Shown: piece by piece, positions 41,493-62,432 of the stretch
Numbering within the stretch: position 1 is the first letter of the stretch
How the letters are laid out: every line of letters begins with the position of its first letter
Assembly: GCA_021014325.1 (NCBI GenBank)
Contig: CM037472.1
Location: forward strand, 35,488,234-35,552,233
Reading direction: 5' to 3'
DNA: 64,000 nt
From: Plazaster borealis
Taxonomy: Eukaryota; Echinodermata; Asteroidea; Forcipulatida; Labidiasteridae
Translations under genes and position numbers: made by a program
The notes under the pieces: model-generated
Told to the model about the DNA's origin: nothing
The model's database searches: none
The model's input: only the letters and a program-made list of their open reading frames with translations

Positions 41493-41568
41493 CTTGTAAG
41501 GATTCCTGTAGACCGACATCAAAGGCTAGCTTGTCTGAAGAGGAGACTGTCGAAAGACATGCAAGGTA
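41493..41568 (-). CDS. RyR: RyR exon, SDKLAFDVGLQE segment (25 codons plus 1 nt)
   Basis: A 76-nt exon that starts in phase 0 after TTTGCCTTGCAG and ends in phase 1 before GTAAGTTT. It encodes YLACLSTVSSSDKLAFDVGL then QESLQ and the first base of Gly. Family members have MYL(S/C)CLSTS...DKLAFDVGLQE at this point of the first MIR motif; the arthropod form YLACLSTSSSNDKLAFDVGL is even closer. The split Gly codon (G|GA) is completed by the exon at 6224-6336, 35 kb away. Just upstream of the acceptor are three 20-bp tandem units (41589-41641) that supply much of the pyrimidine-rich 3' splice region. Identity and boundaries are well supported. Confidence 0.95.
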
Positions 41569-41588
41569 CTGCAAGGCAAAGGACACAA

Positions 41589-41641
41589 AGGTCAAAGGTG
41601 AGAAACACAGGTCAAAGGTGAAAAACACAGGTCAAAGGTGA
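41589..41641. repeat. Three 20-bp tandem units with DR1-type half-sites at a RyR splice acceptor
   Basis: AGGTCAAAGGTGA occurs at 41589, 41609 and 41629 (plus strand), spaced exactly 20 bp. Read on the minus strand the units are pyrimidine-rich (CACCTTTGACC) and lie 20-73 nt upstream of the acceptor of the exon at 41493-41568, where branch point and polypyrimidine tract belong. AGGTCA-N-AGGTCA is the known DR1 site of RXR/HNF4-type nuclear receptors; the match has one change in the second half-site. Either role is inference. Confidence 0.75.
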
Positions 41642-41644
41642 GAA

Positions 41645-42032
41645 ACATAAGGGCAAGGTCATAATGCGCGGGATGCACGACATCAACATGTTACATTGCT
41701 GTCTAAAAAATTTACAACGTACTCTTATTTTGGTTTATTCCAATATTATGTATTTCTTTATTTTACTAAGGTCATTCTGTTTTGTTATACTACTTGTATT
41801 TAATAACTTTTTCCCAATGCTTTTTTTTTTAGATAAGTTGTTTACTTCTTACTTTTTAATCTACTTTTAGTTTGGTTTGCTTCCATGTTTAATTGCTTGG
41901 CTGCTTGCTTTCTGTACACTTAAGTATTTTAGATTTAAATTTTGTTTATTTTTAAGTATTTTATTGCCTAGGTTTGATAGTTTTATTGTAAGGCGCTTTG
42001 GGGTATTTTACATAAGGCGCCATATAAATGCA

Positions 42033-51677: not shown

Positions 51678-51776
51678 CACTTCCACGGTGTCAGCCATGA
51701 CCATTTCTTGAAGCGCTCGTACCGATAGAGCATGCTCAAGAACAAACGTGCAGATGGACAAATCTGGAGTAACACT
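51678..51776 (-). CDS. RyR: RyR exon equivalent to vertebrate exon 3 (33 codons)
   Basis: The exon is 99 nt, phase 0 at both ends, with acceptor GGTTTTTTTTACAG and donor GTG|GTAAGAA. It encodes [20 protein letters not shown] followed by ALQEMVMADTVEV. The match to RyR2 [28 protein letters not shown] is almost residue for residue, making this one of the best-conserved exons of the gene. It contributes a helix and neighbouring strand of domain A. The equivalent human RYR2 exon is the one deleted in some patients with catecholaminergic tachycardia, which shows the importance of the segment (established knowledge). It joins in frame to the exons at 59294 and 48749. The vertebrate RyR2-specific segment between this and the next exon is absent, as also in RyR1. 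Confidence 0.95.
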
Positions 51777-56552: not shown

Positions 56553-57972
56553 AATTACATATTTGATAACAAGATTGTCAGTCTGATAAAAAGCGTCTTT
56601 GTTTGATTATTTGCTTCCATGCTTGTCTGATTACGCTTGACCTTGCATATTGTTTGCCTTTTCTGCTCCTTTCCATACTATTTCTTGTTTGATTTCCTGT
56701 TTGCTGTATTCCCTTTATAGTGTAATATTTCTGGGGGATTTTCTATTAAAGGGGAAGGTTTGTTTTTTCTCAGCTTGCTTGTAGACAACTTATACTTAGT
56801 AGTTGACTGCCTAAGTACATTGCACATAACAAGCAGTTCTGTTTATGACTGTTTGCCTGATATACACTACTGGTACTTTTTAATTTGTTTGTATTGCACA
56901 GTTGTGGTGAGCTGAACTGGTTGTTACACGCATTTTGCAAATACAGTATATATTAGTCTTCACGAGTAACATCTATTGTGCCCCCCCCCCCAATAGATGT
57001 CCATTTCTTCCCCCCCCCCCCATTTGAAATCTGGACTTTTGAAGTTAAAAATCACCAGAATAAAATGTTACATTCAAAAAGAATTCTTTAGTAATTTCAA
57101 TGTTTTTAATACTATTTTTCTATTTACAGGCAGACATTGTATTTGTATTGTTATCTCCACATCAGAGTCTCTAATAAAAAATAGTAAATGACATAATTGA
57201 GAGCGCTGAAAAAGGGCTTGTTGACGAAAAAAAGCCAAAGGAGACAAGACAGAATGGTGCACCCCCTTGTAGGGGCCATCTACCCCCTAAAATTGTACAA
57301 TACGGTTTTGTCGCTGCGAGTAACTGAGGAAAAATACTCAAAGAATGTTAAGACCTTTAACAAAAACGACAGAGTCTTATCAATATGGATTTTGATGAAT
57401 ATTTGTGCGATTGAAATCAATCTTGATCCTCTTTATACACTAATTACTGAGTCAGGATTGAGCTCCTAGGATGTCTCCAACCTCAGTCCCATCCGTCCTT
57501 GTCCCCAGGGGGCATCTTACATGCAGCCAACCACCTCTCAAGTGGCGCTTACTCAAACAGAAAACTGATGTTAATTTGAAGAAAGGCATTTGTATTAGAG
57601 GGGAATTCACTTTGAGGACACAAATGACAAATTACCCAAGACGGTTTGACCGTTAGACTGAGGCCTTTTGAAGAACAAACATAGGTCTCCCCCCTTGTGA
57701 TTACCAAATTAATTACATTCGGTGATAAAGGGGTACTTTGGATATGTGGTAATGTTATTCCTTTGGATTCAGTTCCTTTTGTGCACTTATCCCCCCCCAA
57801 AAAAAAAAAAAAAAAAAAACGGAATGAGGCAAAATGTATGATTTGGGGGAAAATTCAAAATCAGAAATAGCTGTTAAGTCCTATATTGATCAATGAATAA
57901 GATTAACAATACATAATGCACAATACTCTTCAAAAGAAGTTTTACATCTTCCTAGCTCATCTAATACACCTT

Positions 57973-58346
57973 TTAAAGGTATCGTAAACGTTTGGTAATG
58001 ACTCAAAACAAATATTAGCATAAAAACTTACTTGGTAACAAGCAACGGAGAGCTGTGGATAGTATAAAACATTGTAGGAAACGACTCCCTCTGAAGTAAC
58101 GTAGTTTTTGAGAAAGAGGTAATTTCTCACTAAAATAATAAAAACTTCTTGCAAGAAGTTTTTATTCCTATCTGAAAGCACACAAATTTGTACAACAAGG
58201 GTGTTTTTTCTTTCATCATTTTCTTGCAACTTCGATGACCAATTGAGCCCAAATTTTAACAGGCTTGTTATTTTATGCATATGTTGGGATACACCAAGTG
58301 AGAACACTGGTCTTTGACAATTTCCAAACGTGTTCAGTGCCTTTAA
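57973..58346 (+). mobile_element. T2/Kolobok-like MITE, family A, copy next to the 53-bp array
   Basis: TTAAAGGTATCGTAAACGTT to CGTGTTCAGTGCCTTTAA, full length; it ends 17 bp before the first recognisable unit of the exon-derived array. Confidence 0.92.
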
Positions 58347-58362
58347 GAACTACAACTATGCA

Positions 58363-59330
58363 AACATTTCCTAAAAAGGAAACCTTTTACAAAAAAATAA
58401 GTTTCATCCAGGAAACACTTCCTAAAATATCAAGGAAACATACCGGATTACAAGTGTCTTCCAGGAAACACTTCCTAAAATATTAAGAAAACCTTTCACC
58501 AAAATATAAGCTTCATCCAGGAAAAACTTCCTAAAACATCAAGGAAACTTATTGGATTACAAGTGTTTTTCGGGAAACACTTCCTAGAATATCAAGGAAA
58601 CTTACCGGATTACTAGTGTCTTCCAGGAAACTCTTCCTAGAATATCAAGGAAACTTACTGGATTACAAGTGTCTTCCAGGAAACACATCCTAGAATATCA
58701 AGGAAACTTTCCGAATTACAAGTGTCTTCCGGGAAATACTTCCTAGAATATCAAGGAAACTCACTGGATTACAAGTGTCTTCCGGGAAACACTTACTAAA
58801 ATATCAAGGAAACTTGCTGGATTACAAGTGTCTTCCGGGAAACAACCGCCCAGAATACAAGTGTCTTCCGGGAAACACTTCCTAGAATATCAAGGAAACT
58901 TACTGCATTACTAGTGTCTTCCAGGAAACTCTTCGTAGAATATCAAGGAAACTTACTGGATTACAAGTGTCTTCCAGGAAACACTTCCTAGAATATCAAG
59001 GAAACTTACCGGATTACAAGTGTCTTCCGGGAAACACTTCCTAGAATATCAAGGAAACTTACTGGATTACAAGTGTCTTCCTAAGTAAGATTTGAAACTT
59101 TGCATGGTGGGAATACGATATGGAAAGGTTTGCGGTGACACCATGTACATGTAATAATCTCTCTATATGAGTTGGGGGGGTGGTTCTGAAAAGAACCGTT
59201 GGTTTCAACTTGGTTGTTCGATCAGTATGCTCTGATCGTCTTCTGGAGAAGTGTCTTCCTGTAAACACTTTCTAGAATATCAAGGAAACTTACCGGATTA
59301 CTAGTGTCTTCCAGGAAACACTTCCTACTT
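58363..59330 (-). repeat. 53-bp minisatellite derived from the RyR exon 2/intron junction
   Basis: About 11 recognisable units plus divergent edge units, period exactly 53 bp (for example ACTTCCTA at 58983 and 59036). On the minus strand the unit is the last 32 nt of the exon at 59294-59419, then its donor GTAAGTTTCC and 11 further intron bases ending TTCTA. Donor-position sequences going downstream include CCA|GTAAGT, CCG|GTAAGT, GCA|GTAAGT, CCA|GTGAGT, CCA|GCAAGT, a dead GAAAGT and CCG|GTATGT. One unit near 58835-58868 is internally shortened. The array is broken by a J-type insertion at 59090-59245 between the exon-proximal unit and the rest. The exon is the source because it encodes residues conserved across RyRs (KCFLEDTSN). 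Confidence 0.9.
59090..59245 (-). mobile_element. Penelope-like fragment J5 inside the 53-bp array
   Basis: GGTTTGCGGTGACACCATGT, GGTTCTGAAAAGAACCGTTG and CGATCAGTATGCTCTGATCG. On the minus strand: CCAGAAGA, a perfect 7-bp stem CGATCAG/CTGATCG, then CGAA. It lies between array units and separates the authentic exon end from the bulk of the array. Confidence 0.72.
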
Positions 59331-59419
59331 CCGAATCCCTCGCCAGCAAGAAGAACATGAGAAGAGGTGCCATCTTTGCTTTTACTCTGCGTGGAACACA
59401 CAAGGCACAACTGGTCACC
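59294..59419 (-). CDS. RyR: RyR exon equivalent to vertebrate exon 2 (42 codons)
   Basis: The exon is 126 nt, phase 0 at both ends, preceded by TATCCATTTCAG and followed by GTAAGTTTCC, a near-perfect donor. It encodes GDQLCLVCSTQSKSKDG, a short insert-like TSSHV, then LLAGEGFGSRKCFLEDTSNP. Human RyR2 has DDEVVLQC... and [20 protein letters not shown] at the same place, so this is the first strands of the N-terminal domain A beta-trefoil. The first family residues (an acidic leader ending FLRT) belong to the missing upstream exon. The last 32 nt of this exon, with 21 nt of intron, are the source of the 53-bp tandem array immediately downstream (58363-59330). Family identity is firm; the exact acceptor is supported by phase and by the matching position of the vertebrate boundary. 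Confidence 0.93.
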
Positions 59420-59574
59420 CTGAAATGGATAGAATACAGACGTCAATCCAATGAAGAATACATCAGAAACAAGTTGACATTTTTCCGGGCTTGACTTTCA
59501 AGAAAATGTCCACTTTACCACAGGTTTTTTCATAAGACCTAAAAGATGTTTGGCTTTTTTTAATCATAATAATA

Positions 59575-59983
59575 TGAAGTCTTATATAGTGCATGTACCT
59601 ACCAATAAGGTACTCAAGGCGCTTGAACAAACAGAAACAATTTAAGACAGGTTCTTGTTTTTAAACTTTTTTTATTGTGAGACCAATTTATGTAGCACCT
59701 TGTGAGGAATTACCAGGTGCTGCGGTGCATCTAGCAGCCACTGCCAGAAACACCGAGGCAAACCCCTTCTCTTGGTGATAATTGTAACTTGGTTCTTTTA
59801 TGTGCATTACACAACACATGGGACCTACAGCTTTGCGTCCCATCAGAAGGACGAAGCAATAATGGTTAAGTGTCTTGCTTAAGAACACAAGTGTCAAGAC
59901 CAAGAATCGAACCCACACTCTGATGATAAGAAACACCAGAGCTTGAGTTCGGTGCTCTTAACCACCCAGCCAAAACACGCCAT
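59575..59983 (-). mobile_element. SINE S1, antisense
   Basis: TCTTATATAGTGCATGTACC tail, GGTACTCAAGGCGCTTGAAC, GTGCTGCGGTGCATCTAGCA, GAACCCACACTCTGATGATA head; full length but diverged. Confidence 0.88.
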
Positions 59984-60127
59984 AATCATTTGCTAAACTT
60001 TTACGGAGGAAGTTTGGAAGTGGAAAGCTTTTAAGCATCTTTAGTAAAATCTTCAAAAGTAGGCCTATGTGTTTGGAAAAACATTAGACTGCAGGACTTA
60101 TTCAGTTGTGAGGCTACCTGGCCTAAA

Positions 60128-60552
60128 TAATAATAAATAATAGTGGCTTCTTATATCGCGCACATATCCGCCACTCAGTGACGCTCAAGGCGCTTTTAAC
60201 GTTCATTATTTTCCTGCAAGGTATTGCGGAGCTACATTTTTTGAGTATGAGACCAAGTCCATTGCATAGCACCATGTAATGGTTTACAAGGTGCAGTGGC
60301 GCAATATGCTGCCGATCAAACCAGGAACACCGGGGCGAACCCCTTCTCTTTTCGATAAGTGCACTGGGTTCTTTTACGTGCATTACACAATACACGGGAC
60401 CTACGGCTTAACGTCCCATCCGAAGGACGAAGCATGTGGTTAAGTGTCTTGCTTAAGGACACAAGTGTCACGACTGGGATTCGAACCCACACTCTGCTGA
60501 TCAGAAACACCAGAGCTTGAGTTCGGTGTTATCCGCTCGGCCACAACACGCC
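60128..60552 (-). mobile_element. SINE S1, antisense, full length
   Basis: AATAGTGGCTTCTTATATCG tail, GACGCTCAAGGCGCTTTTAA, CACCGGGGCGAACCCCTTCT, GATTCGAACCCACACTCTGC and CGCTCGGCCACAACACGCCA. Nearly collinear with the sense copy at 47978. Confidence 0.93.
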
Positions 60553-62432
60553 ACAGTGCCCAGTGCTAAAATTACTGAACTCTGGCCAGCGGTCCAGTGG
60601 TAAATTTTGAGCACTGCTTTTTCCTGTCAGTGCCACTCTTGCATAGTCTATCAAAAGGAGTACAATTCCGACAGTCAATTCTATCACACACTGCATAATG
60701 CGCCTGTCAAACAAAATGATAAAAAACCCAAGTGGAATACAGAAAATTATCGCTTCAGTGTCTCATATGCAAGAGCAGATCTGCAAACAAATAATTTACT
60801 GTAGGGAAGATATATCACCAATAATAAACTCAATAGCACTCTGCACTAATGACGTCACTTTTGCTCAAAGTACCCGTTTGTCAGACAAACATTCCACCAC
60901 CTAACTCTCACACGATCACCGCATCAGACCGCAATAGTACAGTCAGTACACGGGAGTAATCATAAAGCTTGGACACAACACGCGTCCACAATAGTGAATT
61001 TTTACACATTGTCAGCTGAGATCCCGCTACTGAGCTTCTATTTTTAGCATGAATGTGGAGTCCTGTTTACCAGGCACATCAAAACATGCTAAAAGAATTT
61101 TTTTTAAATCATACAAATTGTATTATGGATCTTGTAGTACTGAACCAATGATACTTTGTTTCCGTCATTCTTTGAGCTTCCACAGAGTCATGAACTGTGA
61201 TTTTGCAATTCTTTTAACGCCCTGCATTCAAAAGGCAGTGTACGGTACACAGCAGCAACATTCAGTTTGATGTCATCGCAAACACAAAAAATGTAGCCAG
61301 TGTAAAGTGCCTTTGTACACTACGTATGTTTTTAAAAAGGAACTTGCACTTTATAGATGAATAAATTATGAATGAATAAATGAATTGACAAAAATAGCAG
61401 TGAGGATTCACGTCTGCTGTCAGAGGACGATACGAAGAGCTGCAAACATGCATCCACAAAACAGTCAGAACGAAGGAGTTAAACTATCGAGACATCCCAT
61501 AACACAGGTACTTTATATTTTACGTTTGAAATCATTTTCCACCACTCCTCCCGGAGGTTACGTTTTCAAGTGCTGCCCAATCACCACGTGGAAACATTTT
61601 TATGATAACATTTCTACAAAGGAGCAGTTTCTAACAAGTTGAATTTTGATATTGCCAATTGTTTATTGAACCACCCAAAGAAAATTGTATTGGAAAAAAA
61701 TAACAAATGATGTCCACAAACTAACGCCCCCCACCCCCCCCCCCCCCGAAATTTTGCTTTTTGGGGGAAATTAACAATCCAATCCCGAACTACCAGATGT
61801 ATCCATGAATCCCATCCAACTTATGCTTGGGGGGGGGGGGGAAATTAACGCTCTAACCCCCAAACTACCCAATTTTAAAGCAAGAAGAACACAGATCAAT
61901 TCTTCTTTTTCGTTTCTCTTCCCCAAAAATATGATCACCATTCCATAAAATCTGTCGGTTTACCCAGTGCTGAAACACTGCCCTTCCTAACAAAACGTGA
62001 CATTAATGCATCATGACAGTGGCCTACGCTGCCAAAATGCTCTCACAGCCCGTCACAACATCCCCAAAGTGCATTTTTAGTGTTACGACATCTCTCTTTA
62101 ATCTGCGTTCGTCCTTTCTCTCATGGAAAATATCAGCTCATTACAGATTCTGCCTTGCAACAGCGCCTAATCACAACTAATAATGATGGAGAACCATTGG
62201 AGTACAGTGTCTGCCCATTCACTGTGAATCCCTATCTCGATGCACTAGATCAATAGCAAACAATACCTGTATAAATTATGTCCTTCATTAGAGATATTAA
62301 CCGTCTGCTTGTACAATGGTGTGCTGCACATGCAAAGGGGAGAAACATTTTACTCAAATCCTCCACTTTTTGAAAAATTGAATTTCATCCAAATAATCTA
62401 AACCGGGTTTCAAAAAAAACCTGTCCAGAACA

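Follow-up and report, generated by a model that had tools for sequence, protein, structure and literature searches.

A probably neutral minisatellite built from an exon–intron junction of the ryanodine receptor gene in the starfish Plazaster borealis

What becomes of a splice junction when the junction itself has been turned into a tandem repeat? The ryanodine receptor (RyR) gene of the starfish Plazaster borealis raises this question in an acute form, for a 53-base-pair (bp) unit made of the end of exon 2 and the beginning of intron 2 is repeated downstream of the exon, and the authentic 5′ splice site (donor) is followed by a series of copies of itself. The array lies in a 64,000-nucleotide (nt) stretch of contig CM037472.1 (positions 35,488,234 to 35,552,233 of assembly GCA_021014325.1), hereafter the window. 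Coordinates are those of the window unless a contig is named, array and gene are both read on the minus strand, and the genome searched comprised 560,608,030 bases in 717 contigs. The evidence makes it very probable that the array is a mirage minisatellite, the name given to repeats of this kind in amphioxus, and that it is effectively neutral and spliced out with intron 2.

Exon 2 contributes its final 31 nt to the unit, and intron 2 its initial 22 nt. An earlier note on this DNA had recognized the junction unit and its repetition downstream but divided it as 32 + 21, a discrepancy that falls within a one-base ambiguity of the boundary; the unit itself is confirmed by the consensus and by Tandem Repeats Finder (TRF), which detects the array independently with a period of 53 and scores of 599 and 403. 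Downstream of the exon copy, 14 further units extend to about 58366: 10 full ones, one that a 166-bp insertion splits, one shortened to 33 bp, and two that have diverged strongly (Table 1). The full units match the consensus at 45–52 of 53 positions, and the best ungapped match elsewhere in the window reaches 29/53. The copy at the exon side is close to the array units, differing from the 10 full ones at 1–9 of 53 positions and from its nearest relative at a single one, and both diverged units sit near the distal end of the array with one good unit (58474) between them. Just beyond that end an apparent interspersed repeat (57957–58349) adjoins the array, presumably akin to repeats of other echinoderm genomes.

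A search of the genome with the unit, in which very common words are skipped, returned 8 matches, all at C18:35546632–35547559. The repeat spans an exon–intron boundary, has a length inside the published range for mirages, and is confined to the RyR locus in the search made. The earlier note had named the exon as the source and had held that the same unit at unrelated loci would speak against it; none was found in that search of the 560.6-Mb genome. Derivation from the RyR junction is supported because the unit occurs at this locus only, the exon encodes residues conserved among RyRs, and the intron lies close to a human one. In particular, the translation of exon 2 matches the N-terminal domains of RyR1 and RyR2 in a search of solved structures in the PDB, and intron 2 aligns to within about one residue of the exon 2/3 boundary of human RYR2, in which deletion of exon 3 is designated N57_G91del35 (PMC4482545). 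A search for protein homologues of the 42-residue exon found none, which is uninformative since that search needs relatives of similar length.

The copies also retain traces of how the repeat may have begun. At unit position 23 the exon copy encodes Ser and most array units encode Cys, with units 58934 and 58636 retaining the Ser state. The exon state is likely ancestral, because RyR structures carry TSN there. The exon sequence leading into the unit finishes with GTAG, and CTAG closes most array units, so the first duplication could have exploited a short TAG homology. The 31-nt exonic part alone is predicted to fold somewhat better than its shuffles (z −1.88; 8 of 200 shuffles as good), a weak signal, though the fold may have helped slippage; a single 53-nt unit folds no better than shuffles (z −0.51).

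How many of the copies still look like splice sites? The earlier note had put the spare donors at about a dozen, some of them decayed or converted to GC. Such donors are indeed present, decayed and GC forms included, but the in-register count is 8 GT and 1 GC in the 14 units, plus two weak GT in the diverged units. The eight comprise six GTAAGT, one GTGAGT, and one GTATGT, and the GC donor reads GCAAGT. As for the remaining in-register places, the donor has been lost in two (GAAAGT and ATAAGT), the truncated unit lacks one, and the diverged units read GTGAAA and GTAAAA. Scoring of the sites, proposed in the same note, places all but two of the spare donors below the authentic one (by a donor matrix and by U1 pairing energy). 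The authentic donor is the first in the pre-mRNA and among the three strongest; the rest of intron 2 contains 3 GTRAGT, none as strong. On the acceptor side, it had been claimed that every unit ends in TTCTAG, which proves true of only six of the 10 full units, the others being preceded by TTTTAG (2), CTAC (1), or TGGG (1). As a separate matter, concealment of the authentic donor by RNA structure was considered and rejected, the 80 nt around it folding no better than shuffles (z 0.53).

A further property of the spare sites is their reading frame. From all 10 array donors tested, exon 2 is extended into a stop codon at residue 66 of its reading, inside the 166-bp insertion, and when the insertion is left out the stop falls at the donor of unit 2. 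Likewise, the 31-nt mini-exons of all 10 full units contain an in-frame stop. The exon 3 piece used in this test was two intronic bases too long at its far end, and every stop lies earlier. Since every donor and mini-exon tested brings in a stop, splicing of these kinds within the array is predicted only to disrupt the message as read from exon 2. Selection for the donors is not apparent either. Across the 10 full units, to which this count was confined (the split unit, the truncated one, and the diverged two are not in it), donor hexamers are off consensus at 5 of 60 positions and the rest of the unit at 31 of 470 (p = 0.59); they are not preferentially conserved. The exonic part shows 15 distinct changes. 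Non-synonymous ones number 14, close to chance expectation given that 75 of the 93 possible changes are of that type; the copies are therefore not kept as coding sequence.

Unit 2 is interrupted by a mobile element of which the earlier note made no mention. It is common in this genome, with 1770 candidates at a first look, 40 of which were scored and gave 56 matches, this copy included; among the 40 genomic copies scored, 16 have a reverse-oriented partial copy alongside. Removing the element together with one of the duplicates that flank it restores a 53-bp unit, and for this reason the array is judged to predate its arrival. The element carries GGTTCTTTTCAGAACC, which presumably resembles the histone mRNA 3′ stem-loop; an Rfam scan of window positions 57000–61000 yielded no family at cut-off.

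Table 1. Features of the RyR junction array and its surroundings (window coordinates)
Feature	Position	Strand	Remarks
RyR exon 2	59294..59419	−	42 codons; both ends in phase 0; GDQLCLVCSTQSKSKDGTSSHVLLAGEGFGSRKCFLEDTSNP; identified by translation, PDB matches, and flanks (cag before, gtaagt after)
Authentic exon 2 donor, CCG/GTAAGT	59288..59293	−	Intron position near human RYR2 exon 2/3 boundary
Source copy of 53-bp unit	59272..59324	−	Straddles exon 2 donor; 52/53 to unit consensus
Unit 2	59041..59271	−	Split by insertion; without it and one duplicate, 53 bp long with 49/53 to consensus
166-bp high-copy interspersed element	59083..59248	−	Inserted in unit 2; contains stop 59224–59222
12-bp target-site duplication	59260–59249 and 59082–59071		AGGAAGACACTT; flanks the 166-bp element
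Remaining array	58366..59040	−	10 full 53-bp units, one truncated, two diverged
Truncated 33-bp unit	58881–58849	−	
Two strongly diverged units	58530–58475, 58421–58366	−	
Spare GT donors (first base)	59062, 59009, 58956, 58903, 58764, 58658, 58605, 58443	−	Span 58438..59062
Spare GC donor	58817	−	In register
Extra GTAAGT	58796	−	Out of register, at unit junction
RyR exon 3	51678..51776	−	SVTPDLSICTFVLEHALSVRALQEMVMADTVEV; 7.5 kb downstream, with the next authentic acceptor; 3′ end set by eye before gtaaga

A neutral history would account for most of these features. A local tandem duplication would have captured the junction, with 31 nt of exon 2 and 22 nt of intron 2, slippage or unequal exchange would have amplified the unit within the intron, and the mobile element would have inserted later. 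The whole array would then be removed with the 7.5-kb intron 2 from the authentic donor, the spare sites would decay without selection, and the rare use of one would stop translation prematurely, with the message being lost. With one locus in the search made, an inserted element, stops from all the sites tested, and donors that are not preferentially conserved, the array is probably neutral. Several observations weigh against this reading. The spare donors at 59009 and 58605 are identical to the authentic 9-mer, and some use of them is plausible from the match. In six of the 10 full units, AG and GT are both in place around the 31 nt. The 14-nt intronic tail (unit positions 38–51) is less variable than the remainder (4/140 vs. 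32/390, p = 0.03), a value that is uncorrected, not independent, and rendered optimistic by shared descent among the units; neutrality by itself does not predict such a tail. For the exonic and intronic parts overall, the corresponding counts are 26/310 and 10/220 (p = 0.11).

The paired AG and GT sites and the two full-strength donors would also suit a regulator, in which splicing at array donors, or inclusion of 31-nt mini-exons, at a controlled rate feeds RyR transcripts into nonsense-mediated decay and lowers RyR mRNA, perhaps in dependence on copy number, and the stops reached from every donor and in every mini-exon tested are what such poison splicing would require. Yet conservation is no higher in the donor hexamers than in the remainder of the unit, a number of donors and acceptors are decayed, the stops arise from the unit sequence itself with no need of selection, and published mirages appear not to perturb splicing, all of which renders a regulator improbable. 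A more specific form of it, in which the number and strength of donors and mini-exons set how much pre-mRNA from the sole RyR gene found goes into stop-bearing splice forms, is less probable still; if true, length polymorphism of this copy-number-tunable poison-splice element would tune the dosage of the calcium-release channel between individuals. The earlier note had raised other possible roles, in which the in-register GT and GC sites would buffer or back up a lost or slow authentic donor or give rise to alternative N-terminal isoforms. All 10 donors tested include the residue-66 stop in the insertion or, without it, the stop at the unit 2 donor, and none rescues an open RyR frame from exon 2 for a protein begun upstream of that exon (later start codons were not looked for). 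Such roles are accordingly deemed highly improbable, and functional spare donors were rejected as the principal explanation in view of the stops from donors and mini-exons alike and the lack of preferential donor conservation.

Two further alternatives concern the nature of the repeat rather than its use. An unrelated satellite or mobile repeat could resemble the exon or have invaded it, and interspersed elements are common here, one of them lying inside the array itself. However, the unit has no match elsewhere in the genome within the reach of the search described above, and the exon copy encodes the conserved RyR residues CFLE-TSN; such an origin is as improbable as a back-up role. The genome was assembled from Nanopore reads, according to its published description (PMC9270726), and an assembly artefact might be suspected on that ground. 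Against this, the array of ~1 kb is well within usual long-read length, its units differ from one another, and it is interrupted by an element with its own target-site duplication, which leaves an artefact the least probable account of all.

The gene that hosts the array is, by its domain matches, the sole RyR gene found in the genome: all 4 matches of PF02026 (RyR domain) lie on contig C18, on the same strand and downstream, 30–93 kb beyond the window start. PF08709 (N-terminal domain) has 6 genome matches, one in this gene and five in two places on contig C20; one of these presumably encodes an IP3 receptor, judging by eye. The occurrence of N-terminal and RyR domains in one gene marks it as a ryanodine receptor gene. 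A tblastn search of a joined region (203,966 bases) with a human RyR query, covering about the first third of the protein, placed 35 minus-strand segments over ~120 kb; exon 2 fell below the E-value cut-off and is left out of these segments, which include some cross-matches between repeated domains. Exon 3 (start 51776, sequence SVTPDLSICTFVLEHALSVRALQEM) is in frame with the intact exon 2. A candidate exon 1, MASAAADGEDEVSFLRI followed directly by gtaagt, lies ~17 kb upstream of exon 2; the match is short (E 0.12), and its start codon, frame, and donor all fit as judged by eye.

No other junction array was detected in this region, as none of the 35 segments overlaps a TRF array (period at least 10, copies at least 2) within the 203,966 bases. 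The nearest array, a pyrimidine-rich 20-bp × 3.2 repeat (41585–41647), comes within 2 bp of a match whose end extends into intron sequence. It ends 16 nt before the RyR exon that begins at 41568 (minus strand) and is fully intronic, a second minisatellite adjoining a splice site of the same gene. TRF further lists in the RyR region large minisatellites of 45 bp × 54.5 (C18:35469862) and 16 bp × 79.5 (C18:35425695), and there is a 64-bp × 5.9 array (C18:35474007) whose unit carries GTRAGT on the RyR strand, ~900 bp from the nearest RyR match found.

How unusual, then, is a junction turned into a minisatellite? The class has precedents. In amphioxus, tandem repeats across exon–intron boundaries, named mirages, are described in Adh3 (units of 10–72 bp) and in globin genes, with units of 150–160 bp in BflGb6 and BflGb9; they occur at 5′ and 3′ boundaries, and many, not all, of their units carry AG/GT (PMC3087553). 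As given in that account, Adh3 data and globin reverse-transcription PCR suggest regular splicing despite the mirages, the clusters vary in length, somatically too at Adh3, and mirages are put forward as a source from which new introns arise (PMC3087553). TnC and PGBD5 have been added as amphioxus mirage genes, with splicing apparently undisturbed (PMC3902484). The starfish array resembles these mirages in its boundary-spanning units, in a unit length within the Adh3 range, and in the AG/GT signals of many but not all units (6 of the 10 full ones). It differs in its starfish host, in the RyR gene, and in its 14 units with an inserted mobile element.

A minisatellite of the human IFI6 (6-16) gene was reportedly described by Turri in 1995 as yielding multiple splice donors. 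The IFI6 isoforms are reportedly in frame. Two downstream repeat units there serve as donors, giving three mRNA species (PMC4526556). Minisatellite units as spare donors are common to both loci; unlike at IFI6, the RyR array donors tested (10/10) give a stop, so that no open-frame isoforms, taken here as the mark of an IFI6-type array, arise that way. A 2007 paper reportedly traced human introns to tandem arrays. In human segmental-duplication genes, boundary tandem repeats with units of ~30 bp on average supply splice sites, and transcripts with novel introns are described (PMC2812944). The likeness again is that junction repeats supply splice sites; their novel introns were seen in transcripts, whereas the starfish array is a matter of genomic DNA. 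In ATP2A1 and the potato RdRp gene a duplicated segment supplies donor and acceptor, and the potato duplication, which crosses an intron–exon boundary, made an intron (PMC4974935). By comparison, the "intron" within one starfish unit would be just 22 nt long, and splicing inside the array would disrupt the frame.

The literature searched, a partial coverage outside which most subscription papers fall, contained no mirage in an echinoderm or in an RyR gene. The statement in the earlier note that no such case had been described may accordingly hold for a Ca2+-channel gene and not for the class, which amphioxus mirages and IFI6 exemplify. With several near-identical donors side by side, the array offers a clean natural experiment on the spliceosome's choice among them, and 7.28 Gb of RNA Nanopore reads have been reported for P. 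borealis (PMC9270726). Together, these comparisons suggest that the RyR array joins the known class of boundary minisatellites in an apparently new setting, and that mirages, reported in amphioxus, extend to an echinoderm and to the gene of a conserved ion channel.
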